Assembly: GCF_026230175.1 (NCBI RefSeq)
Contig: NZ_CP104208.1
Coordinates: 992,001 to 1,056,000 of the forward strand
DNA length: 64,000 bases
From: Desulfovibrio mangrovi
GTDB lineage: Bacteria; Desulfobacterota; Desulfovibrionia; Desulfovibrionales; Desulfovibrionaceae
Direction: 5' to 3'
Under the pieces are notes generated by a model. That model did not search any database, was not told where the DNA came from, and saw only the letters and a list, made by a program, of their open reading frames with translations. The translations under genes and the position numbers were made by a program. This document shows, piece by piece, positions 30,646 to 57,865 of this stretch; the stretch's first letter is position 1; every line of letters starts with the position of its first letter.

Positions 30646-33033
30646 GTGGCCCGTGAACTGTTCGCCTTGTTTCTCGTCTTCTGGGGACTGCTGTTGCTGC
30701 TGAGTCTTGCGACCTACAGTCAGGCGGACCCCAGCCTGAACCACATCGTCAGTTCACCTGCTTCCATCAACAACGCCGCTGGCTTCTTCGGAGCATACCT
30801 TTCCGGTATGCTTGTGGATTTTTTCGGCATTGCATCATATCTCTGGGCATTCGGCTTCATCTTTGCCGGTGGCCGCAACTTCATACCCGGACTTACGGCC
30901 ATGTGGTGGCGCTGGTTCGGCATCACTATTTTCGGCATTTGTCTGTGTGCCTTTGCCTCCGCCGTCTCCATGCAGATTGGCGACATGAGTGGCGGCGGTT
31001 TTCTGGGCACCAGCCTTTACAAGGTCGGTTGGTACTATTTGCGTCCCACCGGAGCCACATTGCTGTGGCTGTTCCTGTTCCTTTGTTCCTTGCAGCTGAC
31101 CTTTGGCAGCACCTGGGCTGACCTTCTCAAACGTTTTCAGGGGCTCACCATGGACCGTATTCTCAAGGTTCTTGAGCGTCATAACCGTCGTTATGTCCTG
31201 AAAGGCAGCGGTCCCCATGATGATGCCGATGAGAAGGGGGGAGCCATCGGACGAAAGGTCAGCCGGCTTTTCCGCCCCAAGAAAAAGGCAGAGAGCAAAC
31301 CGTTGGCGCTTGCCAGCGATAATGACGACCCCCATGTGCCGGAACTCGAACTCACTCAGCATGATGCTCAGGCCGTGAGCCCCGCCGCAATACGTGTTCG
31401 TCAGAGAATGGAAACTCCTGAGGAGTCGTCTGGCAGCGTCATCATAGATGAACGCCCAGTCGCTCCGGCCGGAGAGCTGCTTTCACCCTTCCCCACTATG
31501 CCCGTGGTTGAATCAAAGGCTCCCAAAGCTGCCCCCAAGGTTGCTGTCAAACCGCCTGCAAAGGGCAGGGTGCAGTTACCCAAGTTGGATCTGCTTTCGG
31601 ATCACACCTCGGACATGAATCGGACTCCCAAGGAAGTGCTGGAGTCCAAGGGCCGTATGCTGATTGAAACCCTTGCCGACTTCGGCCTGCAGGGGGAACT
31701 GCAGCGCATTACACCCGGGCCGGTGGTAACCATGTTCGAGATCAAGCCCGCCCCGGGGGTCAAGGTGAGCCGCATTGCGAATCTCTCCGACGATCTCGCC
31801 ATGGCGCTCAGGGCTCTCTCTGTGCGTATTCAGGCACCCATTCCGGGCAAGGATAGCGTAGGCATTGAAATTCCCAATGAACACAGAGAAATTGTCTGCC
31901 TGCGAGAACTCATCGGCGCAGAGGTCTTCCGCAAGTCCGACCTGCCCCTGACTCTTGCCATCGGCAAGGATATCTCCGGCGTTCCTTTTGCCACGGACCT
32001 TGCCAAAATGCCGCATTTGCTGGTTGCAGGCGCTACAGGACAGGGCAAGAGCGTATTCATCAACTCCGTGCTCATGAGCCTGTTATACCGCACCACCCCC
32101 GATGAACTGAAGCTGCTGCTCATCGACCCCAAGCGTATTGAACTGGCCGTATATGCGGATATGCCGCATCTGGTTCATCCGGTGGTGACGGACATGTCGC
32201 AGGCCAAAAATGCACTGGATTGGGCTGTGCATGAAATGGACAAACGCTATGAGGCCATGGCCGTGCTCGGCGTGCGCAATATCATTGGCTACAACGATAA
32301 ACTTAAAGCAATGGGTGAAGATCGGCCGGAAGAATATGCCGCTCTGGAGTCCATGCCATATCTCGTTATCATTATTGACGAACTTGCAGACCTTATGCTC
32401 ACGGCCGCCAAGGAAGTGGAAACCAGCATCGTCCGTCTTGCCCAGTTGGCCCGTGCCGCGGGCATACACCTCATTCTGGCTACCCAGCGCCCCAGTGTGG
32501 ATGTCGTGACCGGCCTGATCAAGGCCAACTTCCCCTGCCGCATCTCTTTCCAGGTGACGGCCAAGCATGACTCCAGAACCATTCTGGATACTGTGGGAGC
32601 CGAGCATCTGCTGGGCAAGGGCGACATGCTCTTCAAGGCAGGCGGCGGCAGGCTGCAGCGCATGCATGGCGCCTTTGTCAGTGACGAAGACGTAGTATCC
32701 GTGGTCAGCTTCTGGAAAGGCCAGATGCCCCCGTCCTACAAGGTGGACTTTGCCGAATGGGGCAACGAGGGAACCGGCGATTTCGGCGGCATGGATGGAA
32801 ACGGAGGTCCCATGGGGGCTGTTTCCGACGATCCCATGTACAACGACTGCGTCTCCTTCGTCATGCAGCAGGGCAAGGCTTCCATTTCGCTTATTCAGCG
32901 CCGGTTCCGCATCGGTTTCAACAGAGCGGCACGCTATGTTGAGCAAATGGAACAGGATGGCATTATTGGTGCAGCGGATGGCAGCAAGCCCAGAGCCGTT
33001 ATCGGCGCTCCGGCGGGACGAGATGATTTTTGA
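30646..33033 (+). CDS. ftsK: DNA translocase FtsK
   Basis: This 795-residue protein pumps chromosomal DNA through the closing septum and activates XerCD at dif. Four N-terminal transmembrane segments (about residues 1-170) are followed by a variable Pro/Lys linker. The RecA-like motor carries Walker A GATGQGKSVF near residue 462 and Walker B LVIIIDELADLM. The C-terminal winged-helix gamma domain (about the last 65 residues, ISLIQRRFRIGFNRAARYVE) reads KOPS and contacts XerD. The GTG at 30646 is the only standard start, but the GGAGG at 30619-30623 is 22 bases away. A non-standard ACG at 30631 would be better placed, so the start is unsure. dif-like DNA and xerD lie 9 and 13 kb downstream. Confidence 0.94.
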   Translation: MARELFALFLVFWGLLLLLSLATYSQADPSLNHIVSSPASINNAAGFFGAYLSGMLVDFFGIASYLWAFGFIFAGGRNFIPGLTAMWWRWFGITIFGICLCAFASAVSMQIGDMSGGGFLGTSLYKVGWYYLRPTGATLLWLFLFLCSLQLTFGSTWADLLKRFQGLTMDRILKVLERHNRRYVLKGSGPHDDADEKGGAIGRKVSRLFRPKKKAESKPLALASDNDDPHVPELELTQHDAQAVSPAAIRVRQRMETPEESSGSVIIDERPVAPAGELLSPFPTMPVVESKAPKAAPKVAVKPPAKGRVQLPKLDLLSDHTSDMNRTPKEVLESKGRMLIETLADFGLQGELQRITPGPVVTMFEIKPAPGVKVSRIANLSDDLAMALRALSVRIQAPIPGKDSVGIEIPNEHREIVCLRELIGAEVFRKSDLPLTLAIGKDISGVPFATDLAKMPHLLVAGATGQGKSVFINSVLMSLLYRTTPDELKLLLIDPKRIELAVYADMPHLVHPVVTDMSQAKNALDWAVHEMDKRYEAMAVLGVRNIIGYNDKLKAMGEDRPEEYAALESMPYLVIIIDELADLMLTAAKEVETSIVRLAQLARAAGIHLILATQRPSVDVVTGLIKANFPCRISFQVTAKHDSRTILDTVGAEHLLGKGDMLFKAGGGRLQRMHGAFVSDEDVVSVVSFWKGQMPPSYKVDFAEWGNEGTGDFGGMDGNGGPMGAVSDDPMYNDCVSFVMQQGKASISLIQRRFRIGFNRAARYVEQMEQDGIIGAADGSKPRAVIGAPAGRDDF

Positions 33034-35622: not shown

Positions 35623-37440
35623 ATGTCCGAATCGGCGAAATATGACAGAAAAAGTGAACATGTAAAGAGCATTCCTCTTCTCAAGCGGTGTCTCGGTTAT
35701 TTCAAGCCATATTCAGGCAAAATCACCATAGCCATACTGGCCATGCTCATGGTTTCCGCAGCGGAAGGAGGCACTGCCTACATCGTCAAGCCAGCCTTCG
35801 ACGAAGGTCTGAACGGCAAGGATATGAAATCGCTCATGTTCGTGGCGCTTGCTGCTGTTGGCATATTTTCGATGAAGGCTGCCGGACGGTACGTACAGAA
35901 CTATCTCATGCGTTACAGCGCACTGAAGGTTCTGGAGCAGTTGCGTAACGAAATGTACGACAAGATGATCTTCCTGCCCATGAAGTTCTTTGAACGTGAG
36001 CAGGTGGGCAACCTCATGTCGCGCATTATTCAGGACGTCATTCTCATCCGTTCCAGTCTGCCAGCCGTCGTCATGATGGTGCGCGAGATCATAACCATGC
36101 TGGCTCTGGTCGGTGTGGTCTTCTATCAGGACTGGTACCTGGCCATATGGGCCGTTCTGGTACTGCCTGTTGCCATCATCCCCATTGCCTTTTTCGGACG
36201 CAAGCTCCGCAAGCTGGGACGCAAGAATCAGGTCAAGCTGGCTGATATTTCAGTGTTCTTGCAGGAAGTGTTCAGCGGCGTCAGAGTTGTAAAAGCCTTC
36301 CATACAGAACGTAAGGAAGGGGAAAATTTCCGTAAGGAAAACGGACGCCTGGTGAAGATCGCCATCAAGGAAGTCATCTACAGTGAACTTTCGTCACCTG
36401 TGATGGACGTTGTCGGCGCTATTGGAGCCGGAGCAGTGCTTATCGCAGGCGGTATGCGCGTCATCGATGGCCACATGACTGTGGGGGGGCTCATGTCCTT
36501 CCTCGCGGCTCTCGGTCTTTTGTATGCGCCGGTCAAAAAGTTCACCTCGGCCAACCTTGATGTACAGCGTGCGCTGGCCGGTGCCGAGCGTGTCTTCGAA
36601 ATTCTCGACTCCACCGAGATAGTTGAGGAAAAGGACGGCACCGTTGCGTTTGAACCTCCGCTGCAGGAAGTGGAGTTCCGCAACATCACCTTTGCCTATG
36701 AAGACTGCGCCACTCCCGCGTTGGATAACGTGAGCTTCACCGTGCGTGCTGGTGAGCGTGTGGCAATTGTGGGGCCGAGCGGGGCGGGCAAGACTACTTT
36801 CGTCAACCTCATCCCCAGATTCTACGAACAGCAGGGCGGGCAGATACTGATCAACGGAAAGGACGTTCGTGATTACACATTGGCAACTCTGCGCCGTAAT
36901 ATTGCCATGGTTTCTCAGGATGCCTTCCTCTTCAACATCTCCGTGCGCGACAACATTGCATACGGGCAGGCCGAGATTAACGATGAAGCCGTATTCGCCG
37001 CTGCACGAGCTGCCTATGCCCATGACTTCATCGAAAAACTGCCCGAAGGCTATAACGCCGTGGTCGGCGAACGTGGCACCAAGCTTTCCGGCGGCCAGAA
37101 GCAGCGCCTGACCATTGCCCGCGCTATCCTCAAGAACGCACCGTTGCTCATTCTCGACGAAGCGACCAGTGCACTGGATTCAGAATCCGAACGCATCGTA
37201 CAGAAGGCTTTGGAAAACTTGATGGCGGAACGCACCAGCATCGTGATCGCGCACCGTCTTTCCACCGTGCTTTCCGCAGACCGCATTCTGGTCATGGACA
37301 AGGGTAGAATCGCCTCACAGGGCAGACATGAAGACCTGCTGGGCAGTTGTCCTCTCTACACCAAACTCTACGAAATGCAGTTCAACACTCCTGAACCTGT
37401 TGAGTCTGCCACCTGCGTCATGGTTGAGGAGACTGCCTAG
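35623..37440 (+). CDS. msbA: lipid A export ABC transporter (MsbA-type, fused permease/ATPase)
   Basis: This ~605-residue half-transporter has six transmembrane helices (about residues 20-320). The nucleotide-binding domain follows with Walker A GPSGAGKTTFVN, signature LSGGQKQRLTIARAIL, Walker B LLILDEATSALD and the H-loop IVIAHRLST. The best fit is MsbA, which flips lipid A core across the inner membrane, because two lipid acyltransferase genes follow directly. The ATG at 35623 is used; a TTG 21 bases upstream is possible. The next gene starts on the base after its stop. Confidence 0.9.
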   Translation: MSESAKYDRKSEHVKSIPLLKRCLGYFKPYSGKITIAILAMLMVSAAEGGTAYIVKPAFDEGLNGKDMKSLMFVALAAVGIFSMKAAGRYVQNYLMRYSALKVLEQLRNEMYDKMIFLPMKFFEREQVGNLMSRIIQDVILIRSSLPAVVMMVREIITMLALVGVVFYQDWYLAIWAVLVLPVAIIPIAFFGRKLRKLGRKNQVKLADISVFLQEVFSGVRVVKAFHTERKEGENFRKENGRLVKIAIKEVIYSELSSPVMDVVGAIGAGAVLIAGGMRVIDGHMTVGGLMSFLAALGLLYAPVKKFTSANLDVQRALAGAERVFEILDSTEIVEEKDGTVAFEPPLQEVEFRNITFAYEDCATPALDNVSFTVRAGERVAIVGPSGAGKTTFVNLIPRFYEQQGGQILINGKDVRDYTLATLRRNIAMVSQDAFLFNISVRDNIAYGQAEINDEAVFAAARAAYAHDFIEKLPEGYNAVVGERGTKLSGGQKQRLTIARAILKNAPLLILDEATSALDSESERIVQKALENLMAERTSIVIAHRLSTVLSADRILVMDKGRIASQGRHEDLLGSCPLYTKLYEMQFNTPEPVESATCVMVEETA

Positions 37441-39078: not shown

Positions 39079-41448
39079 ATGCGATTGGGCTTTCGCAGAC
39101 TTCGTCTTTGGCTGAAGACTCAGCTTGGCGGACGCATAGCCGTTCTGATGACCGGCGTATGCATTACCGCCTTGATGCTCCTGTTCTATCTTTGGAATCC
39201 CTTTTCCCTCCGCGGGCTCGTTTACAAGGTCTATGACGAGCTGCTCATTCAGACACACACCCGTGAAACCACAGGTGTTCCCATCATCATTGATATTGAT
39301 GAGAAATCATTGGAAAAATTCGGCCAATGGCCATGGCCCAGATACCGCGTGGCCATGCTGCTGGCGTTGGCGCAACGCTACGGCGCTGCCGCGGTCGGGC
39401 TTGATATCGTCTTTTCCGAGCCAGACCGGACCTCTCCGAGGATCCTCAAGGAAAGACTTGCCGAAGACTTGAAGGTTCGGATGAACATTTCCGGCCTGCC
39501 GGACGCCTTGCTGGATAATGATGTTTTGCTTGCCGAGAACCTGAGGCACGGCCCCTTTGTCCTTGGATATCACTTTAACTTTGAATCTTCTGGCTCTAAC
39601 GAAAAAGCGTGTACGCTTCATCCTGTCAAGCCTGTCATTCTTTCAAGTGCCGGTGCAGCCGCCCCTGAAGACGTGCTCTATAACGCCCCGGAAGCCATAT
39701 GCAATTTGCAGGTTCTGGGCGAAGCTGCTCCCAGTTCAGGTTTCTTCACCACCGTGCCGGACATCGACGGCATGCTGCGTCGCACCCCCCTCATCATCTA
39801 TTTCAAGGGCAATATCTATCCCAGCCTGGCTCTTGCCATGCTCATGCAGGCCAGTGGTAATTCCCAGATTACTTTAAAGATGAAGGAGGGCGGTGTTGAG
39901 TCCATCAAATTCGCGGATATGGTCATTCCGCTTGATGAACGAGGCAGAATGCTTCTCAAGTATCGGGGGAAAGGGGGCACATTCGATTATATTTCAGCTG
40001 CGGACATCCTGGAACAAAAGCTGAAGCCCAATGCGCTTAAAGGAAGACTTGTCCTTATCGGGACATCTGCCGCGGGCCTCAAGGACTTGCGGGCACAGCC
40101 CTTTGACCCTGTTTTTCCGGGAGTTGAGGCGCATGCCACGGTGCTGGACACCATTCTTGCCGGCGACTTCATTACACGCCCATGGTATGCGCGAGCGTTG
40201 GAGTTCAACGCCATACTGCTGGTCGGTCTCATTTCAACAATAATCCTGTCGTTGACAGGGGCCATGCCGGCCCTTGTTGCCTGTATCATCATGGGGGCAG
40301 GGCTTCTTTTCGGCGCTAAATGGAGCTTTGCCACGCATGGCTTCTTCCTTTCCCCGCTCACAGCCATGTTCACACTTATTCTGAACTTTTCGCTGCTAAC
40401 CCTCATGAAGTTCAGAAGGGAAGAAGGGCATAAGAAGTTCCTCACTGCAACCTTCAAGTCATACTTATCTCCTGAACTCATTGAGGAAATGATTGCGGAA
40501 AGAACCATGCCCGAACTGGGTGGCGAAGCCCGCATAATGACGGCCTATTTCACGGACATTCAGAAGTTCTCGACTTTCTCGGAAATCCTCACGGCCCCGC
40601 AACTCGTCGAACTATTGAATGAATACCTTTCCGCCATGACGGATATCCTTATTGCGGACGGTGGTACGCTGGATAAGTATGAAGGTGACGCCATCATCGC
40701 ATTTTTCGGGGCTCCGTTGGATTTGCCGGATCACACGTTACGGGCCTGCAAGGTGGCTCTGGCCATGCAGAACTCATTGCTTGCCCTGAGAAGGAAATGG
40801 CTGGCGGAAACCTATGATCCTACGGTTGAAGACCGCAACACCAAGAGGTACCCGCCTGAAGTCTGGCCTCATGGCAGTAAATGGCCCGTGAACGTACATA
40901 ACATGTGCATGCGCATAGGGATTAACAGCGGAGAAATGGTAGTGGGCAACATGGGGAGCGCCATACGAATGAACTATACCATGATGGGCGACCCCGTTAA
41001 CCTTGCCGCACGTCTTGAAGCCGGCGCCAAGCAGTTCGGCATCTATACGGCTGTCAGCGGACATACACTTGATGTTTCCTTTAAGGATACACGTGGAGGC
41101 ATGGTAACCGTCCGGGATTATGTGGAAACACGCTTTATTGACCGCATTGCTGTTGTCGGAAAAAGCGAACCGGTTGAAGTGTATGAACTTGTGGCCTTGA
41201 AGGGAGAACTCAGTGAAACTGAGCATTCATTGTTCGATCTCTTTGCTTCCGGCATCACCCTCTATCAAGCACAGCAGTGGGATAAAGCCATAGCCGCATT
41301 CACCGAAGCAAAGGCGTATGAACGTTTTCCCGATGCCCAGACAACGCCGTCAGATGTGTTTATCAAGCGCTGCTTGCAATACAGGGAGAATCCCCCGGTA
41401 CCGACAGGGGAGCCATGGGACGGCGTGTATCGCATGACGAGCAAATAG
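39079..41448 (+). CDS. CHASE2-domain class III adenylate cyclase
   Basis: This 789-residue receptor-type cyclase has an N-terminal transmembrane helix and a periplasmic CHASE2 sensor (about residues 45-370). Three more transmembrane helices (about 375-455) and a cytoplasmic class III cyclase domain (about 485-700) follow. The metal-binding Asp493 (FTDIQKF) and Asp537 (YEGDAI) are present, with the adenine-selecting pair Lys533 and Asp638 and the transition-state Asn641 and Arg645. It is therefore predicted to make cAMP and to be active. An insert of ~35 residues (RKWLAETYDPTVEDRNTKRY onward) interrupts the domain, and a TPR-like tail ends the protein. It is single, with a terminator after it. 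The signal sensed is unknown. Confidence 0.92.
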   Translation: MRLGFRRLRLWLKTQLGGRIAVLMTGVCITALMLLFYLWNPFSLRGLVYKVYDELLIQTHTRETTGVPIIIDIDEKSLEKFGQWPWPRYRVAMLLALAQRYGAAAVGLDIVFSEPDRTSPRILKERLAEDLKVRMNISGLPDALLDNDVLLAENLRHGPFVLGYHFNFESSGSNEKACTLHPVKPVILSSAGAAAPEDVLYNAPEAICNLQVLGEAAPSSGFFTTVPDIDGMLRRTPLIIYFKGNIYPSLALAMLMQASGNSQITLKMKEGGVESIKFADMVIPLDERGRMLLKYRGKGGTFDYISAADILEQKLKPNALKGRLVLIGTSAAGLKDLRAQPFDPVFPGVEAHATVLDTILAGDFITRPWYARALEFNAILLVGLISTIILSLTGAMPALVACIIMGAGLLFGAKWSFATHGFFLSPLTAMFTLILNFSLLTLMKFRREEGHKKFLTATFKSYLSPELIEEMIAERTMPELGGEARIMTAYFTDIQKFSTFSEILTAPQLVELLNEYLSAMTDILIADGGTLDKYEGDAIIAFFGAPLDLPDHTLRACKVALAMQNSLLALRRKWLAETYDPTVEDRNTKRYPPEVWPHGSKWPVNVHNMCMRIGINSGEMVVGNMGSAIRMNYTMMGDPVNLAARLEAGAKQFGIYTAVSGHTLDVSFKDTRGGMVTVRDYVETRFIDRIAVVGKSEPVEVYELVALKGELSETEHSLFDLFASGITLYQAQQWDKAIAAFTEAKAYERFPDAQTTPSDVFIKRCLQYRENPPVPTGEPWDGVYRMTSK

Positions 41449-41519: not shown

Positions 41520-42402
41520 CATTCATATCTCAATTCTGAGGCCTGAAATGAAAATGGGGCGAGCCGTTGCCCATAAATCCAAAAAGGAAGCCTCAAATCT
41601 CCACGTAGAGCTTTGGCTCAAACCGCATAGAGAGAGGTGCACCATATGCCGTGGTGTCAGCCTGTCTGAATGATGGGTTTACAGAATTCAAAGAGAGCAT
41701 TCGGGCGAGTGGCTGTGGAAAGCTTATCGATTGTTTCACGGATATCCACAGTGGAGTAACTTTGTGATTTTACTTATCATGCCATATTTAAAAGTTAACA
41801 TAATTTACATTATGAGACATTATACAGTGACTTTTACTCCCCACTTTGGTCCATGCTTCAGCACCTGAGAATGTTCTTTCAAACATAACCACCTTTCCCG
41901 ACAGCTGCCTCATTTCCAATCTTGGGATCGGTATTGCTGTTCATCCTTCCTGATGGACTGTCACGTTCTTCAAGTCATTCTCCACAACATGACAGGCATT
42001 CTGCCTCTGTCCCCCAAATCCATTTTGGGGGCTCAAAACGAAAAGTGCGATCCTGACCTTGGAAAAATAAAAAATGGAAGCTCTCGTCGCCGTACCCACT
42101 CTGGGGCGACGGCGTGGTCTGCACCATGGTCAGCCATCTTGACTGAGCCATGATCCCTAAGTGAAGAATCAGATGTAATCCGTCCTTTTCCCATGCCCGT
42201 AGGCCGCTGGCAGACCATTTACAAATGATTGCTCAATGAAAAAATACAAGGATTCAGTGGGTTGACGTAATCATCGACCTAGGGCACATACTCATTTCTT
42301 CATCGAATTGTTTGTCCTTCTTTCGGAAGGACCGTGCTCTACTACTTGTGCGAGTAACGTTTTGACGTTTTTGGGCTTTTCTCACTTGTAAACGGGTACG
42401 GA
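41520..42402. other. large gene-free interval with dif-like site and several hairpins
   Basis: No believable gene is present; the one short open frame (41953-42153) lacks a ribosome site and codon bias. The interval holds an AT-rich tract with the dif-like element (listed separately). It also has inverted repeats at 41712-41750 (CTGTGGA / TCCACAG), 42011-42031 (CCCCCAAA / TTTGGGGG), 42085-42111 (CGTCGCC / GGCGACG), 42125-42152 (CATGGTCAG / CTGAGCCATG) and 42314-42332. The cluster of hairpins at 42.0-42.35 kb could be a structured RNA; I do not recognise its family. Confidence 0.5.
41793..41820 (-). other. dif: dif-like chromosome dimer resolution site
   Basis: Read on the minus strand, this 28 bp element has a XerC arm ATGTCTCATAA, a central hexamer TGTAAA and a XerD arm TTATGTTAACT. 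The E. coli dif site has arms GGTGCGCATAA and TTATGTTAAAT around TGTATA. Twenty-one of 28 positions are the same, and the inner 20 bases differ at only one. Only the outer half of the XerC arm is diverged, as is usual between species. XerC and XerD recombine here, under FtsK control, to resolve chromosome dimers. xerD lies 4.5 kb to the right and ftsK 9 kb to the left. dif sites lie at the replication terminus, so this window is probably the terminus region. Confidence 0.8.
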
Positions 42403-44279: not shown

Positions 44280-44753
44280 TTATTGCCAGATCTGATCGCC
44301 TACCAATCTGAATTGCAAGGCGTTCAAGGCTTGTAACAAAGTTTTCCCGTCGGGAAAAGTCAGTTCAGGGGCAATTTCGTGCAGAGGTATAAGAACAAAG
44401 GCGCGTTGCTGCATGCGCGGATGCGGCAGAACAAGCGTTTCTGTTGCCATGACGGAACTGCCGAACAGCAGCAGGTCCAGATCAATGATGCGGGGACCGA
44501 AACGGTCTTCAGGGGCGCTGCCGTCACGGCAACGCCCCATGGAAGACTCGATATTCAGCAAAGAGGCAAGAAGCGTCTCAGGACTCGTACGGGCATCGCA
44601 CGAAACACGGATTACCTGATTGGCAAACCATGCCTGATCCTTTTTCTCCTGCGGCTCGGTCCGGTACACCCCGGAAGCGGCTTCCAGTGAGACTCCTTCC
44701 AGAGCGGATATGGCTTCAACGGCACGGGCAAGATTGCCGTCCGTATCCCCCAT
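44280..44753 (-). CDS. folK: HPPK (dihydropteridine pyrophosphokinase); true N-terminus lies upstream without a standard start
   Basis: This enzyme adds pyrophosphate to 6-hydroxymethyl-dihydropterin in folate synthesis. The motifs are SGVYRTEPQ, a Mg/ATP region DRFGPRIIDLDLLLFG and PHPRMQQRAFVLIPL. The first in-frame ATG at 44753 would omit the first beta strand and the pterin-contact motif. The same frame continues upstream as VEAFICLGSN before that ATG, matching E. coli TVAYIAIGSN. No ATG, GTG, TTG or CTG occurs in frame before a TGA at 44814-44816. AGGAGG at 44809-44814 precedes an ATC at 44804 by 4 bases, a possible non-standard start inside the end of dapL. The given start is therefore a minimum. 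Family is sure. Confidence 0.8.
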   Translation of the reverse strand: MGDTDGNLARAVEAISALEGVSLEAASGVYRTEPQEKKDQAWFANQVIRVSCDARTSPETLLASLLNIESSMGRCRDGSAPEDRFGPRIIDLDLLLFGSSVMATETLVLPHPRMQQRAFVLIPLHEIAPELTFPDGKTLLQALNALQFRLVGDQIWQ

Positions 44754-44779: not shown

Positions 44780-45949
44780 CTACAGCTTGGAGGCTATTCT
44801 GGATACCGCCTCCTCAAGGCGTGCGTCGTTCACGGTAAGGGAAATACGGAAGTAGCCTTCGCCCGGAGCACCAAAGCCGTTGCCGGGGGTTACGACTACG
44901 CCGGTTTCCTGCAGCACCTTGGTGACGAATTCGGACGAGGTGTAGCCTGCCGGAACACGACACCAGATGTAGAAGGTGGATTCAGGCACGTTGCAGTGAA
45001 TGCCCACCTTGCGCAGGGCTGCGATCACGGTGTCGCGACGCTGCTTGTAGATCTTGCGAAGCTCTGCGGTGAAGGGGTCACCGTCGCGCATGGCCACGAT
45101 GCCCGCTTCCTGAACAGCCTGGAACACACCGGAATCCACGTTTTCCTTGATCTTGCCAAGGCCGTGAACCAGCTGTGGGTTGCCTACGGCCATACCCACG
45201 CGCCAGCCGGTCATGTTGTAGGTCTTGGACAGGGAGTGGAATTCAATGGCCACGTCCTTGCCGCCGGGAACGGACATGATGGACAACGGCTTGTTGTCTT
45301 CATTGTAGTAGATTTCAGTGTACGCGGTATCGTGAACCACGATCACGTTGTACTGCTTGGCAATCCTGATGAGCTTTTCGTAGAACGCCACGTCAGCCAT
45401 GGCGGCCGTGGGGTTGTTCGGATAGTTCACGAAGATGGCCTTGGCCTTGATCCACGTTGCTTCATCAATGGCATCAAGGTCGGGCAGGAAGCTGTTGTCC
45501 TCGGTCAGAGGCACGAACTGCACAATGCCGCCGGCAAATTCGGTGGCAATATTGTATACGGGGTAGTTGGGGGTGCACACCAGCACCAGGTCGCCGGGGT
45601 TGATGAACGCCAGCGGGAAATGGGCGATGCCTTCCTTGGAACCGATAAGGCTGACAACTTCAGTCTTCGGATCAAGGTCTGCATCAAAGCGTCTCTTGTA
45701 CCAGTCGGCCACGGCCTCACGGTAGGACAGCATGCCCACGTAAGAGGGATATGCATGGTTGGCAGGCTTTTCCACCGCTTTCTTCATGGCCTCAATGATG
45801 AAATCGGGGGTGGGCATGTCGGGATCGCCAATTCCCAGACTGATGATGTCCACACCGCGGGCGGCAACCTGTGCCTTGATCCGGTCGATTTCTGCGAAGA
45901 GGTACGGGGGCAGTTTAGCCAAACGGTCTGCAAGCTGGAACTGTGCCAT
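44780..45949 (-). CDS. dapL: LL-diaminopimelate aminotransferase-type enzyme
   Basis: This 389-residue class I/II aminotransferase uses PLP on Lys242 in HSLSKTYNMTGWR. The family blocks DIISLGIGDPDMPTPDFI, NYPNNPTAAMADV and VVVHDTAYTEIYY are present. The best assignment is DapL, which converts tetrahydrodipicolinate directly to LL-diaminopimelate, since lysA is 10 kb away and this is the usual Desulfovibrio route. A general aspartate-type activity cannot be excluded. The ATG at 45949 is chosen because homologues begin there and AAGGAG lies upstream. The frame stays open a further 381 bases upstream, through the promoter and terminator, which looks accidental. Confidence 0.87.
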   Translation of the reverse strand: MAQFQLADRLAKLPPYLFAEIDRIKAQVAARGVDIISLGIGDPDMPTPDFIIEAMKKAVEKPANHAYPSYVGMLSYREAVADWYKRRFDADLDPKTEVVSLIGSKEGIAHFPLAFINPGDLVLVCTPNYPVYNIATEFAGGIVQFVPLTEDNSFLPDLDAIDEATWIKAKAIFVNYPNNPTAAMADVAFYEKLIRIAKQYNVIVVHDTAYTEIYYNEDNKPLSIMSVPGGKDVAIEFHSLSKTYNMTGWRVGMAVGNPQLVHGLGKIKENVDSGVFQAVQEAGIVAMRDGDPFTAELRKIYKQRRDTVIAALRKVGIHCNVPESTFYIWCRVPAGYTSSEFVTKVLQETGVVVTPGNGFGAPGEGYFRISLTVNDARLEEAVSRIASKL

Positions 45950-45990
45950 AGCGTTGCGTTCTCCTTGAAATTTCAATCCCTTTTGCCGGT

Positions 45991-46019
45991 AAAAAAAGAA
46001 GGGCTCTGCCATAAGCCCT
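45991..46019 (-). terminator. terminator-like hairpin in the dapL leader (possible attenuator)
   Basis: On the minus strand AGGGCT-N8-AGCCCT is followed by TTCTTTTTTT, 42 bases before the dapL ATG. It lies downstream of the proposed dapL promoter, so it would stop transcription before the gene unless overcome. Confidence 0.6.
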
Positions 46020-46064
46020 GTTCCTTCTCTATTGACTTGTGAGGCATATGCCATTTGTACGTCT

Positions 46065-46092
46065 AAAATACAAGTGTTTAGTGGACGTTCAA
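46065..46092 (-). promoter_or_regulatory. candidate promoter for dapL
   Basis: On the minus strand TTGAAC (plus 46087-46092), a 16-base spacer and TATTTT (plus 46065-46070) face dapL. The predicted leader is ~110 bases and includes the terminator-like hairpin. Confidence 0.45.
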
Positions 46093-46267
46093 TCACTCTC
46101 GAGCGCCAGTTTATAAAGCTGCTCCGGAAGGAAAGAGCAACCGGCTGTTGGTCAGATCTGTTCGACGCCAAGAAATCATCATCCCCTGCCCTTGTCTGCC
46201 ATACCGACAGCGTGTAACCTGTTATGGCAATTGATATGTAACCAGCCAGTTCACCCATGGAAAACTG

Positions 46268-47182
46268 ATGACCCAACAGGCACTCACCACTCCCCCAACC
46301 CATCCTCTTGTTGACAGCTACTTGCAGCACCTGCTTGTCACACGCGGGCTTTCAGAAAACACCATTGCGTCGTATGCCGCCGATCTGGAAAGCTTTCTGC
46401 TGTTCCTTGAAGAAAAACGCTTTCAGCTTGAAGCCGTAACCGACCAGTCGCTCTTTTTATATGTTATGTACCTGCGCAGGCGGGGACTCAACAGCCGGAG
46501 CCTTGCCCGGCACCTTTCCGCCTTGCGGGGATTTTTCGCCTTTTGTCTTGAAGAACGGACGCTGAGTGACAATCCGGTACAATACCTTGAGAATCCGAAG
46601 CTGCCTAAAACCCTTCCGGATGTGCTTTCGCAGGAGGAGGTAGCCGCCATCCTTGCCCAGCCCGACCTCAAGACCAAGCTTGGGTTCAGGGACAGAACCA
46701 TGCTGGAACTGCTCTATGCTGCCGGGTTGCGCGTCTCCGAACTTATCTCCCTTGCTCCGGTGGATTTTGATGCCCAGACCGGCCTTGTCCGGGTCTTCGG
46801 CAAGGGCAGCAAAGAGCGCATTGTGCCGGTTCATGACGCCGCAGCCCAGTTTCTGACGAACTACCTCCGGGACTGGCGTCCGGCTTTTTCGCCGGTAGAG
46901 AACTTTGTGTTCCTGAACCGTTCCGGCAAGCAACTCTCGCGGCAGGCCATCTGGAAGAATATCCAGCGCTATGTGCTGGAAAGCGGCATACGTAAGAATG
47001 TGTCTCCGCATACATTCAGACATTCTTTTGCCACGCATCTGCTTGACGGCGGGGCTGATCTGCGCACTGTGCAGCTATTGCTCGGGCATTCCGACATTGC
47101 AGCCACGGAAATCTACACGCATGTTCAGGCCGACCGGCTCCGGCAGGTGCACCGCCAGTTTCACCCCCGCTCAAGGATGTAA
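46268..47182 (+). CDS. xerD: site-specific tyrosine recombinase XerD
   Basis: This 304-residue tyrosine recombinase acts with XerC at dif to resolve chromosome dimers. The N-terminal SAM-like domain (YLQHLLVTRGLSENTIASY) is followed by the catalytic domain. The catalytic set is complete: Arg in AAGLRVSELISL, Lys in FGKGSKERIVPV, the HTFRHSFATHLL box, and LLGHSDIAATEIYTHV with the nucleophilic Tyr. XerD is preferred over XerC from the overall sequence style. A dif-like site lies 4.5 kb to its left and ftsK 13 kb to its left. It is 2 bases from the next gene. Confidence 0.92.
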   Translation: MTQQALTTPPTHPLVDSYLQHLLVTRGLSENTIASYAADLESFLLFLEEKRFQLEAVTDQSLFLYVMYLRRRGLNSRSLARHLSALRGFFAFCLEERTLSDNPVQYLENPKLPKTLPDVLSQEEVAAILAQPDLKTKLGFRDRTMLELLYAAGLRVSELISLAPVDFDAQTGLVRVFGKGSKERIVPVHDAAAQFLTNYLRDWRPAFSPVENFVFLNRSGKQLSRQAIWKNIQRYVLESGIRKNVSPHTFRHSFATHLLDGGADLRTVQLLLGHSDIAATEIYTHVQADRLRQVHRQFHPRSRM

Positions 47183-47184
47183 GC

Positions 47185-50052
47185 GTGCCCAGCAATTCAA
47201 ACAACAATGGTAACGGGCAATTGATTCACGCTCCCGTACTCATCACAGCGCACGCAAACGCGGATTTCGACGCCCTTGCGGCCATTGTCGCGGCCAGCAA
47301 GCTGTATCCTGATGCAGTACTGGTCTTTCCCGGCAGCCAGGAACGGAACCTACGCAATTTCTTCATTGAAAGCGCTACCTACATGTTCAACTTCAAGCAG
47401 GCCAAGGACATAGACTTCAGTTCCGTACGAAAGCTCATTGTCGTGGATACCCGCCAGCGCTCGCGCATTCCACACGTGGCGGCTGCACTCGACAATCCTG
47501 ATCTGGAAATCCATCTTTACGATCACCACCCCGAATCCGATGACGATTTACCGGCGTCACTAAGCGTTTACCAGTCATGGGGCGCGACCACGACAATCAT
47601 CACCCTGATGCTGCGCGACAAAGGCATCTCCGTTTCTGAAGAGGAAGCCACCCTGCTCGGTCTTGGTATTTTTGAGGACACGGGCTCATTTTCCTTTGCT
47701 TCGACAACGGAGCATGACTTTGCGGCAGCGGCGTGGCTCAAGACCAAGGGGATGGACCTGAACGCCATTTCCGAACTCATGACCCGCGAGCTGACGACAG
47801 AGCAGGTGTCCATTCTCAGCGCCTTGCTGCAAAGCGCCTCAACCCATGACATCAATGGAGTTTCCGTCGTCATGGCTGAAGCCACGATAGAGCATTATGT
47901 CGGCGACTTTGCCCTGCTGGCCCATAAAATGCTCGACATGGAAAACCTGAAGGTGCTCTTTGCGCTAGGGCGCATGGGGGACAGGGTTCACGTTGTGGCC
48001 CGCAGCCGTCTGCCTGAGGTGGATGTAGGCCAGATATGCTCTTCTCTCGGAGGCGGCGGCCACCCTTATGCTGCGTCCGTCTCCGTCAAGGACAGGACAC
48101 TCTCTCAAGTAAAGGATGAACTTTTCGCCCTGCTCTTTTCTTCCGTGAACAAGCAGAAGCTTGTGCGCGACCATATGTCCGCCCCCGCCGTCAGCATTGA
48201 TGATGGTTCAACCATCGCCAAGGCGGAAGAGGTCATGAATCGCTACGGGCTCAAGGCCATTCCCATTATCAAAAAAGACAACCACTTCGAGGTGGCCGGT
48301 TATCTGGAATACCAGACGGCAACCCGGGCCATGACGCATGGTCTGGGCAATATGCCCGTAAGCGTCTATATGCAGCGGTCAGTGCAAACGGTGCATCCGG
48401 ACGACAGCTTGTATCCGGTAATGGAAATCGTGGTCAGCAACAGACAGCGACTTGTGCCCGTTGTCGAAAACGGAGCCATCATCGGTGTCATTACCCGCAC
48501 GGACATCATCAATACCATTGTGGAAGAACCGGCACGCATTCCGGAAACACTGCTTCCTGAAAAACGACGGGAACGCAATGTGAAGTCCCTGTTGCGGGAG
48601 CGGCTTCCCTCACGCCTGTTCACTCTGCTGGAAGTGGCGGGGAACCTGGGAGACTCGCTCGGCATTCCGGTTTATGCTGTAGGCGGCTTTGTCCGTGACT
48701 TGCTGCTTTCGCGCACCAATCTCGACCTTGACCTTGTGGTGGAAAGTGACGGCATCGCCTTTGCCCGGGAGCTGGCAAGGGTGCTGAACGGCCGTGTGCG
48801 TGCCCACAACAAGTTCAAGACGGCGGTAGTCATATACAAGGGAGAGAACGGCAACCAAGAGCGTGTGGACGTAGCCACCGCCCGCCTTGAGTATTACGAA
48901 TATCCTGCGGCCCTGCCTACGGTGGAATTGTCGTCCATCAAGATGGACCTGTACAGACGCGATTTCACCATTAATGCGCAGGCTATTCAGCTGAATAAAA
49001 TGCAATTCGGTCGTCTTATCGACTTTTTCGGTGCGCAGCGGGACATGAAGGACAGAATGCTGCGCGTGCTGCATTCCCTGAGTTTTGTGGAAGACCCCAC
49101 ACGCATTCTGCGCGCCATCCGGTTTGAGAAACGCTTCGACTTTCAGATTGGCCCGCAGACCACCCGCCTGATCAAGAACGCGCTGCAGTTGGGACTAATG
49201 GACAAGCTTACCGGCAGCCGCATTTTCAACGAAGTGGATGCGATTCTGCATGAAGGTCGCCCCCTCGCCTGTCTGCGTCGGATGGAAGAGTTCGGCATTT
49301 TGACCATCATTCATCCGCAGCTGCGGCTCACCCAGACCAAGGAACAGGTGCTTGGAGAATTGGAAAGCGTGGCGAGCTGGTATCGCCTGCTGTACCTTTC
49401 CGATGTTCCTGAACCATGGATGCTGTATCTCATGGGCCTGTTGATGAACGCGACCTATGTTGAAGTGAAGGAAGTGGCTGCGCGCTTCAACCTGACCAAA
49501 CGGCAGGAAGAGGATTTCCTCACGCTCAGGGAGAATATCCGCGAAGGCATTACGCTTCTGAATACCTGGGGGCGGCATGACCGCACCATGAGCGGACTGT
49601 ATCGCACGCTTTCACCTATAGGTATAGAAGGCTTACTGTTCATTATGGCCCGTACCAAGGCCGATGAGCTTCGCAAGAGCATTTCGCACTACCTGACGCA
49701 TCTGCGCGGCATGAAGATTGATATCTCCGGCGAAGATTTGAGAATCATGGGCGCACCGCCTGGTCCTGCCTATGGCAGGGTCCTCTCACGTGTTCTGGCA
49801 GCCAAGCTGGATGGAGAAGTCCCCACCCGTCAGATGCAACTTGAACTGGCCATGTCGCTGATATTGAAAGAAACAGAGAAAGATGCCGAATACTTTGCCA
49901 GAAGAAAGGTCTGTCACATCCCTGCTCCGGACAGCAATCCGGCGCATGCCGTGTTTTCTGAGGATATCCCGCTTGAGCCGGCGGCCGGTGGTTCGGATGG
50001 GCCTGCCCCTGAACAGAATGAGCCCGTTATCCCTCCGGATGACAGCAACTGA
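47185..50052 (+). CDS. DHH phosphoesterase - CBS pair - tRNA nucleotidyltransferase fusion (A-adding type)
   Basis: This 955-residue fusion starts at GTG. Residues ~15-310 form a DHH/DHHA1 phosphoesterase: HANADFDALAAI, VVDTR, LYDHHPES and GGGGHPYAASVS near 289. Residues ~320-450 are two CBS motifs (VRDHMSAPAVSIDDG and PVSVYMQRSVQTVHPDD). Residues ~490-800 form a class II nucleotidyltransferase, with VGGFVRDLLLSRTNLDLDLV at ~498, YRRDFTINAQAI and VEDPTRILRAIRFEKRF. Similar fusions in deltaproteobacteria are known or proposed as tRNA A-adding enzymes working with a separate CC-adding enzyme. The DHH part may act as an oligoribonuclease, and the CBS pair may sense adenylates. A second nucleotidyltransferase at 5560-6681 fits this split. 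It follows xerD by 2 bases. Confidence 0.87.
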   Translation: MPSNSNNNGNGQLIHAPVLITAHANADFDALAAIVAASKLYPDAVLVFPGSQERNLRNFFIESATYMFNFKQAKDIDFSSVRKLIVVDTRQRSRIPHVAAALDNPDLEIHLYDHHPESDDDLPASLSVYQSWGATTTIITLMLRDKGISVSEEEATLLGLGIFEDTGSFSFASTTEHDFAAAAWLKTKGMDLNAISELMTRELTTEQVSILSALLQSASTHDINGVSVVMAEATIEHYVGDFALLAHKMLDMENLKVLFALGRMGDRVHVVARSRLPEVDVGQICSSLGGGGHPYAASVSVKDRTLSQVKDELFALLFSSVNKQKLVRDHMSAPAVSIDDGSTIAKAEEVMNRYGLKAIPIIKKDNHFEVAGYLEYQTATRAMTHGLGNMPVSVYMQRSVQTVHPDDSLYPVMEIVVSNRQRLVPVVENGAIIGVITRTDIINTIVEEPARIPETLLPEKRRERNVKSLLRERLPSRLFTLLEVAGNLGDSLGIPVYAVGGFVRDLLLSRTNLDLDLVVESDGIAFARELARVLNGRVRAHNKFKTAVVIYKGENGNQERVDVATARLEYYEYPAALPTVELSSIKMDLYRRDFTINAQAIQLNKMQFGRLIDFFGAQRDMKDRMLRVLHSLSFVEDPTRILRAIRFEKRFDFQIGPQTTRLIKNALQLGLMDKLTGSRIFNEVDAILHEGRPLACLRRMEEFGILTIIHPQLRLTQTKEQVLGELESVASWYRLLYLSDVPEPWMLYLMGLLMNATYVEVKEVAARFNLTKRQEEDFLTLRENIREGITLLNTWGRHDRTMSGLYRTLSPIGIEGLLFIMARTKADELRKSISHYLTHLRGMKIDISGEDLRIMGAPPGPAYGRVLSRVLAAKLDGEVPTRQMQLELAMSLILKETEKDAEYFARRKVCHIPAPDSNPAHAVFSEDIPLEPAAGGSDGPAPEQNEPVIPPDDSN

Positions 50053-57157: not shown

Positions 57158-57865
57158 ATGGCCTCACTGGATTTCCACACGTTCTTCCGCCGACTGGAAA
57201 AAGCCACAAGCATCAAGAGTCAGCAGGATCTTGCAACGGCGCTGGGAGTCAACCGCTCTGCCATTACGCAGGCGAAGCGACGTGATGCTGTGCCTCCCAA
57301 ATGGATTCTGGCCTTGTCACGTCAATTCGGCCTTAATCCCGACTGGCTTGAATTCGGAAAAGGGGTGCCGCAGCAATCAAAAGCGGATGTTGCTGCACCG
57401 GTCTCCCCTGCTCCTGCCACTCATTCTGAGCACGAACAGGTGGCTGACATTCCTGCCATAGCGACAGTTCCCAAGGTCTATGCGCGCCTGTGCGCAGGCG
57501 GCGGCTCCTTTGACGTGGAGGCAGCCGTGGTGGAGGAACACATCTTCAGACAGGACTGGCTGGCCAAAAAAGGCAAGCCCGGCTCCATGGTTCTGATGGA
57601 TGTTTTCGGCAACAGCATGGAACCCGAAATCCGGGAAGGCGACATGGTGCTTGTGGACCAGTCTCAGAAAGACATTTTTGCCGGTTCCATCTACGCCGTA
57701 GGCCTTGAAGATACTGTCATGGTGAAACGACTTGAACGCAAGATGAGAGAAGTTGTCCTGCACAGTGACAACCCGGATTACTCGCCTATCCACGTTCGGG
57801 GCGATGAGTTTGAAAGCTTTCGCGTCATAGGACGCATTGTCTGGATCTGTCGGGAATATCGCTAG
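57158..57865 (+). CDS. XRE-family regulator with S24 (LexA/CI-like) peptidase domain
   Basis: This 235-residue protein has an N-terminal helix-turn-helix (about residues 12-60, SQQDLATALGVNRSAITQAK). A linker and a LexA/CI-type S24 domain follow. The cleavage site is probably Ala113-Gly114 in RLCAGGGSF. The catalytic pair is Ser153 in FGNSMEP and Lys190 in VMVKRLE, so self-cleavage is expected. Such repressors respond to RecA-dependent DNA damage or other stress. No prophage genes are nearby, so this looks like a free-standing stress regulator. AAGGAGA precedes the start. A terminator follows, and similar TATAAAC motifs recur downstream, suggesting it controls its neighbours. Confidence 0.88.
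   Translation: MASLDFHTFFRRLEKATSIKSQQDLATALGVNRSAITQAKRRDAVPPKWILALSRQFGLNPDWLEFGKGVPQQSKADVAAPVSPAPATHSEHEQVADIPAIATVPKVYARLCAGGGSFDVEAAVVEEHIFRQDWLAKKGKPGSMVLMDVFGNSMEPEIREGDMVLVDQSQKDIFAGSIYAVGLEDTVMVKRLERKMREVVLHSDNPDYSPIHVRGDEFESFRVIGRIVWICREYR

Follow-up and report, generated by a model that had tools for sequence, protein, structure and literature searches.

The window, that is, the whole 64,000-nucleotide stretch analyzed in this work, corresponds to positions 992,001-1,056,000 of the single contig of 3,947,083 bases that forms the genome of a sulfate-reducing bacterium. Near position 41.8 kb it contains a 28-bp element that is almost certainly the dif site of the chromosome, on which XerC and XerD act at the terminus, and that we call dif from here on. 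The ftsK gene ends 8.8 kb to its left and xerD starts 4.4 kb to its right, in agreement with the nearness of both genes reported in a preliminary description of this DNA. Table 1 compiles the features of the locus, including the genes that separate dif from xerD, and a companion element located beside dif.

Table 1. Features of the dif locus, with positions counted from the first letter of the window.
Feature	Position	Strand	Remarks
ftsK	30646-33033	+	4TM, alpha, FtsK_SpoIIIE and gamma domains
Nearest left KOPS, GGGCAGGG	40295-40302	+	directed to dif
Interval without ORFs of at least 100 aa	41449-42402	.	954 bp, contains dif
Companion element, TTATCGATTGTTTCAC	41724-41739	+
TGTTTCAC within the companion element	41732-41739	+	on the side of the XerD arm, its start 61 bp ahead of dif
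TCCACA, further conserved part of the companion element	41745-41750	+	in the nine genus loci only
AA adjoining the XerD arm (TT in dif orientation)	41791-41792	.	conserved extension past the 28 bp
dif site, 28 bp (almost certain)	41793-41820	-	letters read, genome-wide search, relatives
dif XerD arm, TTATGTTAACT	41793-41803	-
dif central hexamer, TGTAAA	41804-41809	-
dif XerC arm, ATGTCTCATAA	41810-41820	-
folK	44280-44753	-	in the conserved dif-folK-(dapL)-xerD block
dapL (LL-diaminopimelate aminotransferase) ORF	44780-46330	-	enzyme match from residue 131-132
Nearest right KOPS, GGGCAGGG	46184-46191	-	directed to dif
xerD, tyrosine recombinase	46268-47182	+	TIGR02225, 371.5 bits (cut-off 329.6)
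Gene for DHH/CBS/poly(A) polymerase-head protein	47185-50052	+	next block member

Read on the minus strand, the element has the anatomy of a dif site, with two 11-bp arms that form a partial inverted repeat around a 6-bp centre and with a conserved XerD arm, and the order ATGTCTCATAA, TGTAAA, TTATGTTAACT is the one given in the preliminary description. Its count against E. coli dif also holds in a comparison made by eye: 21 of 28 bases are shared, with a single difference among the inner 20. The site is overlapped by no ORF of at least 100 aa, and the 954-bp interval around it is, as claimed, the longest such stretch of the window, the runner-up measuring 383 bp. Within the window, the dif consensus with up to three mismatches has one match, and none of 100 shuffles has any. 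The 28-mer is likewise matched only once, at up to three mismatches, in the whole contig, which indicates a single copy on the chromosome. A loose half-site pattern gave 11 matches across the genome, compared to 8 and 9 in reversed-pattern controls; dif is the sole place with one mismatch, and the other matches, namely the reverse strand of dif itself and nine further places, have three. A single match in the genome had been proposed beforehand as a check of the site, and these searches supply it.

To follow the site in relatives, the inner 22-mer was searched with up to three mismatches in 99 genomes (our own included), whose genus, family, and order labels are inferred. One match each was found in 90 of them, and the reversed-pattern controls gave one match in all. 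Eight of the nine genomes without a match are under 90% complete, and the other one (G090) is 99% complete. Two of the 90 matches (G073 and G077), with three mismatches in fragmentary genomes, were judged spurious by eye; they are left out of the counts on 88 loci that follow but stay among the 90 genomes used below for the distance to xerD. The XerD arm reads TTATGTWAACT in 86 of these loci and the centre TGTAAA in 60, while letters 2-7 of the XerC arm read TGTCYC in 67, five of these letters being outside the search pattern. Past the XerD arm, there is an A at position -1 in 87/88 loci and at position -2 in 85/88. The consensus for the order is TGTCYCATAATGTAAATTATGTWAACT, and 43 of the 88 loci agree with it in full. 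The surrounding 954-bp interval is otherwise unalignable in most cases: in 78 of the 87 loci of relatives, nothing aligns except dif and no more than 20 bp next to it, and in eight, seven of which belong to the same genus as the window, the alignment extends further. The conservation in close relatives that the preliminary description had asked for is thus present.

The position of dif relative to the replication arms was analyzed through GC skew and KOPS. Inside the window, the skew is noisy and its cumulative maximum falls at 36,788, 5 kb from dif; a published survey gives 7.3 kb as the median separation between dif and the peak of the skew (PMC2731167). Outside the window, the skew refers to 230 kb of sampled DNA rather than to the whole genome, and the origin stretch (L064) is excluded from the skew and KOPS tallies. 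Counting the window halves, the left arm is positive in 10/10 stretches and the right arm negative in 11/11. The motif GGGNAGGG, which is the E. coli KOPS consensus (PMC2680272), has forward to reverse counts of 29:3 on the left arm and 5:25 on the right one, that is, 54:8 in favour of the direction toward dif in the 274 kb sampled, with 8 of 62 in the wrong direction. Its polarity ranks second among 11,445 gapped 8-mers; GAGNAGGG (50:6) is slightly more polar, and the six letter permutations of GGGNAGGG show a weaker skew than the motif itself. In the window, the counts are 10:1 on the left of dif, with the exception at 31,486, and 0:4 on the right, and the polarity switches between 40,295 and 46,184, so that KOPS converge on dif.

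The origin lies on the opposite side of the chromosome. A perfect parS is found at 2,930,976 and a one-mismatch copy at 2,930,769, 207 bp from it, with a local skew minimum at 2,930,899 near the pair and dnaA-dnaN-gyrB at about 2.939-2.944 Mb; since these place the origin opposite dif, the two arms measure about 1.90 and 2.05 Mb. A third parS-like place, at 500,947, has two mismatches, which is the level of the controls. Two dnaA-like genes are present (L008 and L064, 12499-13980): the copy that belongs to the dnaA-dnaN-gyrB cluster, close to the skew minimum, is under the DnaA equivalog cut-off, and a better-scoring one is located at 442,606, away from the origin. The terminus that the preliminary description had put at about 41.8 kb, and the skew switch on which it wanted that placement checked, are both supported by the sampled skew and by the KOPS reversal at dif, with the origin opposite, and dif fixes the replication terminus of the genome at about 1.034 Mb.

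The genome encodes XerC, XerD, and an FtsK with a gamma domain, the XerC assignment being under the cut-off of its own model: the best model is TIGR02224, with 319 bits compared to a cut-off of 335 (16 bits under), and the protein is above the cut-off of NF001399 for tyrosine recombinases. Its gene lies at 731,340, 302 kb from the dif locus. In seven aligned XerD sequences, the Arg/Lys/His/Arg/His/Tyr columns are invariant, and we take these to be the catalytic residues.

The anatomy of the element, its uniqueness, its location at the terminus as judged by sampled skew, the KOPS switch, the presence of ftsK-gamma, xerD, and xerC, and the conservation are all properties read from DNA letters, and it is on them that we base the assignment of 41793-41820 as the chromosomal dif. 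For binding, the order of cleavage, and dimer resolution at this site, we rely on analogy with the known system. Accepting the analogy, KOPS aimed at dif from both replichores would guide FtsK at the septum, FtsK would bring together both dif sites of a chromosome dimer, and its gamma domain would activate XerD; strand exchange within TGTAAA, performed by XerD and then by XerC, would convert the dimer into two monomers.

Two other origins for the element were weighed. The element might be, instead of the chromosome's own dif, an attachment site that resembles dif and that an Xer-exploiting integrative element (IMEX) uses or has left behind. Such a site would be recognised by the same recombinases, and a repressor-like gene (Phage_CI_repr plus Peptidase_S24, 57158-57865) is found 15 kb away. 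However, the scanned neighbours apart from this repressor look chromosomal, dif occupies the same place by folK-xerD in many relatives, and the copies are single both in this genome and in the 90 genomes with a match. Because no second dif was found in the genome, an IMEX or prophage attachment site is refuted as the sole explanation, and we regard this origin as very improbable. The core of the element is also AT-rich and semi-palindromic, as a chance inverted repeat would be, but the 100 shuffles without a match, together with the uniqueness of dif, its conservation, and its location at the polarity switch, reduce chance to a negligible probability.

The xerD gene lies close to dif far beyond this genome. 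In the 90 genomes with a dif match, an over-cut-off xerD is found on the same contig in 69, on another contig in 18, and not at all in three. The same-contig distance is at most 10 kb in 61 genomes, which represent five of the six families; in the remaining family, xerD and dif do not share a contig in any genome. By genus, the proportion is 36/42. The gene is directed away from dif in 61/61 of these close cases, presumably against the incoming fork, and the grouping is no local accident. With respect to ftsK, 27 of 44 same-contig genomes have it within 20 kb of dif, and all of them belong to the window's family; only six of the 44 come from other families. The preliminary description had called such a close grouping of site, recombinase, and translocase uncommon, which fits published surveys but does not apply to this order, where closeness of xerD is the rule (61/69), or to ftsK in the window's own family, where it is common (27/38).

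The usual order on the right-hand side is dif-(fsa)-folK-(dapL)-xerD-next gene, while the left side is variable. Retention was counted, as raw numbers, in the 65 loci that extend 8.5 kb or more to either side. Within 8.5 kb, xerD is kept in 51 loci (unchanged with over-cut-off xerD alone), folK in 50, and the gene after xerD in 48, and the others are kept less: dapL in 33, fsa in 27, and ftsK in 10. Since folK and the gene after xerD are kept about as often as xerD, there is a conserved block without a linkage specific to xerD, and a special retention of xerD above its neighbours is ruled out by these counts. The gene directly after xerD, for the DHH/CBS/poly(A) polymerase-head protein, adjoins xerD in five families. 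Just left of dif in the window, a gene for a CHASE2 plus adenylate/guanylate cyclase protein occupies 39079-41448, and it is found near dif in just 4/65 of the long loci. In five genomes (G017, G019, G020, G033, and G041; loci L074-L078), dif is reversed relative to the conserved neighbours on the xerD side, which looks like a tolerance of small inversions at the terminus. In G019, the order is kept on either side of the reversed dif, and in the other four the xerD side alone is recognised.

The same comparison was extended to a sample of the phylum, in which 157 of 198 genomes have a dif match. The linkage count was made among the matches listed, which include 147 of these 157 dif genomes and 150 genomes with xerD (181 are over the cut-off). 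Among these listed matches, 112 genomes have both, 107 of them outside the window's family; 20 of the 107 have the two on the same contig, and three of the 20 within 10 kb. All three belong to one other order, in which a dif match was obtained in 42 of 48 genomes. According to the coordinates of 30 dif loci of that order (L243-L272; 12 further dif genomes lie outside this count), xerD lies within 1.5 kb and has its end facing dif in 24. The six loci without xerD include two at a contig edge, two with a three-mismatch dif, and two of full length (L243 and L271). In locus L228 (9908-9957), dif starts 21 bp past the xerD stop codon, behind a large gene that reads as GlnD-like, and dif is likewise found directly after xerD, with the gene directed toward it, in L229 and L230. 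In Gracilibacillus timonensis (L186; 11052 and 11672), an XerD-like gene is followed, at 0.2 and 0.8 kb, by a pair of dif-like sites whose orientations are opposite.

Two explanations of the block can be confronted with these data. Closeness might be kept by selection, through a local supply of XerD, the dosage that comes with late replication, or co-inheritance as a module as in xerS/difSL and xerH/difH, as opposed to the slow decay of an ancestral block. The frequency of the close cases by genome and by genus and their uniform direction agree with selection, as do the coming and going of fsa, dapL, and the left flank; so do the second order, with the end of xerD adjoining dif in most loci, and the rest of the phylum, where only 3/20 same-contig genomes among the matches listed have the two within 10 kb. 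Against it, the retention of folK and of the gene after xerD shows that xerD is not special, and 6/42 genera keep dif without any genome in which xerD is within 10 kb. We consider selection rather unlikely. The closeness of xerD to dif is most simply explained as an inherited block (folK-xerD-downstream gene) that is anchored beside dif throughout the order, and is no proof of a special mechanism.

The second particularity of the locus is the companion element. Of the 88 loci, 16 have the 8-mer TGTTTCAC no more than 200 bp from dif; they come from seven genera of one family, and nine of them are in the window's genus. The 8-mer is always on one strand and 60-82 bp before dif (128 bp in one locus) on the XerD side, and its density there is 17.5 times that found elsewhere in the same loci; on the XerC side, there is none within 160 bp. 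With one mismatch, it shows no clear excess in the remaining loci, with 4 and 2 per strand in 38 family loci and 0 and 4 in 34 other loci, compared to 1.9 expected. In the window's genus, TGTTTCAC sits in a longer conserved piece, TTATCGATTGTTTCAC...TCCACA. The 16-mer TTATCGATTGTTTCAC is found at dif in 8/10 genus genomes (six exact and two with one mismatch); G001 has none at dif within two mismatches, and G003 has none anywhere. Its copies with no or one mismatch in the genus genomes occur at dif only, and a multi-copy organiser similar to matS is therefore unsupported, although matches with two mismatches elsewhere number 35 compared to 8 in the reversed-pattern control, some of the 35 being the same sequence in several genomes. 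Pieces similar to TTATCGAT were seen by eye in G016 and G056. Beside the companion element, five genomes of the genus have TTATCCACA, which in our view resembles a DnaA box. Finally, TGTTTCAC has the same letters as a half of the perfect parS at the origin of this genome, from which one might guess that ParB binds the companion element; we know of no role of parS half-sites alone as ParB sites.

A tentative reading, to which we give a low probability, goes further. In part of the Desulfovibrionaceae-like family, dif would be a two-part locus, formed by the 28-mer and by a companion element on the XerD side, with a distance and an orientation that hardly vary. The companion element would be bound by an accessory protein with a regulatory role in recombination at dif or in the handling of the terminus, and this protein might be ParB or an organiser of the terminus. 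Separately, xerD would have come to lie at dif on two or more occasions within the phylum, with layouts that differ. If this is true, a two-recombinase system has the module-like layout known from single-recombinase systems, and, provided that a protein binds it, the companion element is an accessory site at a chromosomal dif.

The dif site itself is ordinary and largely predictable from the published site of D. vulgaris; what deserves the attention of specialists is the companion element, together with the xerD block found throughout the order. The dif of D. vulgaris Hildenborough (ATGTCCCATAATGTAAATTATGTTAACT) shares 27/28 letters with the one described here (Carnoy and Roten 2009, PMC2731167, Table 1), and the single differing letter is in the XerC arm. 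That site is intergenic and 18 kb from the skew peak, and the available part of the same source makes no mention of xerD linkage in D. vulgaris (PMC2731167). In the open PMC literature, as far as it was covered, we found no report of xerD-dif linkage in XerCD bacteria of this group and no paper that has TGTTTCAC together with "dif site", and the titles retrieved for KOPS plus Desulfovibrio look unrelated. The classical xer/dif arrangement is described as unlinked (PMC2731167, PMC2958812), xerC being in most cases close to dif and xerD close to the origin (PMC3025954), a tendency to which the xerD-dif block is contrary. The linked and unlinked genomes provide a natural set for asking whether the position of a recombinase gene matters. 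Linked layouts have been described for XerS, XerH, and the XerA of Sulfolobus (PMC2731167, PMC3025954, PMC2958812, PMC5357621).

Compared to these systems, the locus shares with E. coli the arms, the 6-bp centre, the KOPS GGGNAGGG, and the gamma domain of FtsK; in E. coli, however, xerC, xerD, and ftsK are shown in the oriC region (PMC2958812, Fig 2), whereas here xerD and ftsK flank dif. As in xerS/difSL and xerH/difH, a recombinase gene is found beside its own site near the terminus (PMC2731167, PMC5357621). Those modules have a single recombinase and other sites, while here both XerC and XerD are encoded, dif is canonical, and xerD lies 4.4 kb from dif, with fsa, folK, dapL, and two genes of lesser certainty in between, which leads us to reject a single-recombinase module of the XerS/XerH type. 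The xerA/dif of Sulfolobus is also similar, since its dif lies near the gene of the recombinase and is flanked on one side only by a short conserved sequence (Cortez 2010, PMC2958812), although that system is archaeal and the likeness of the flank is one of description.
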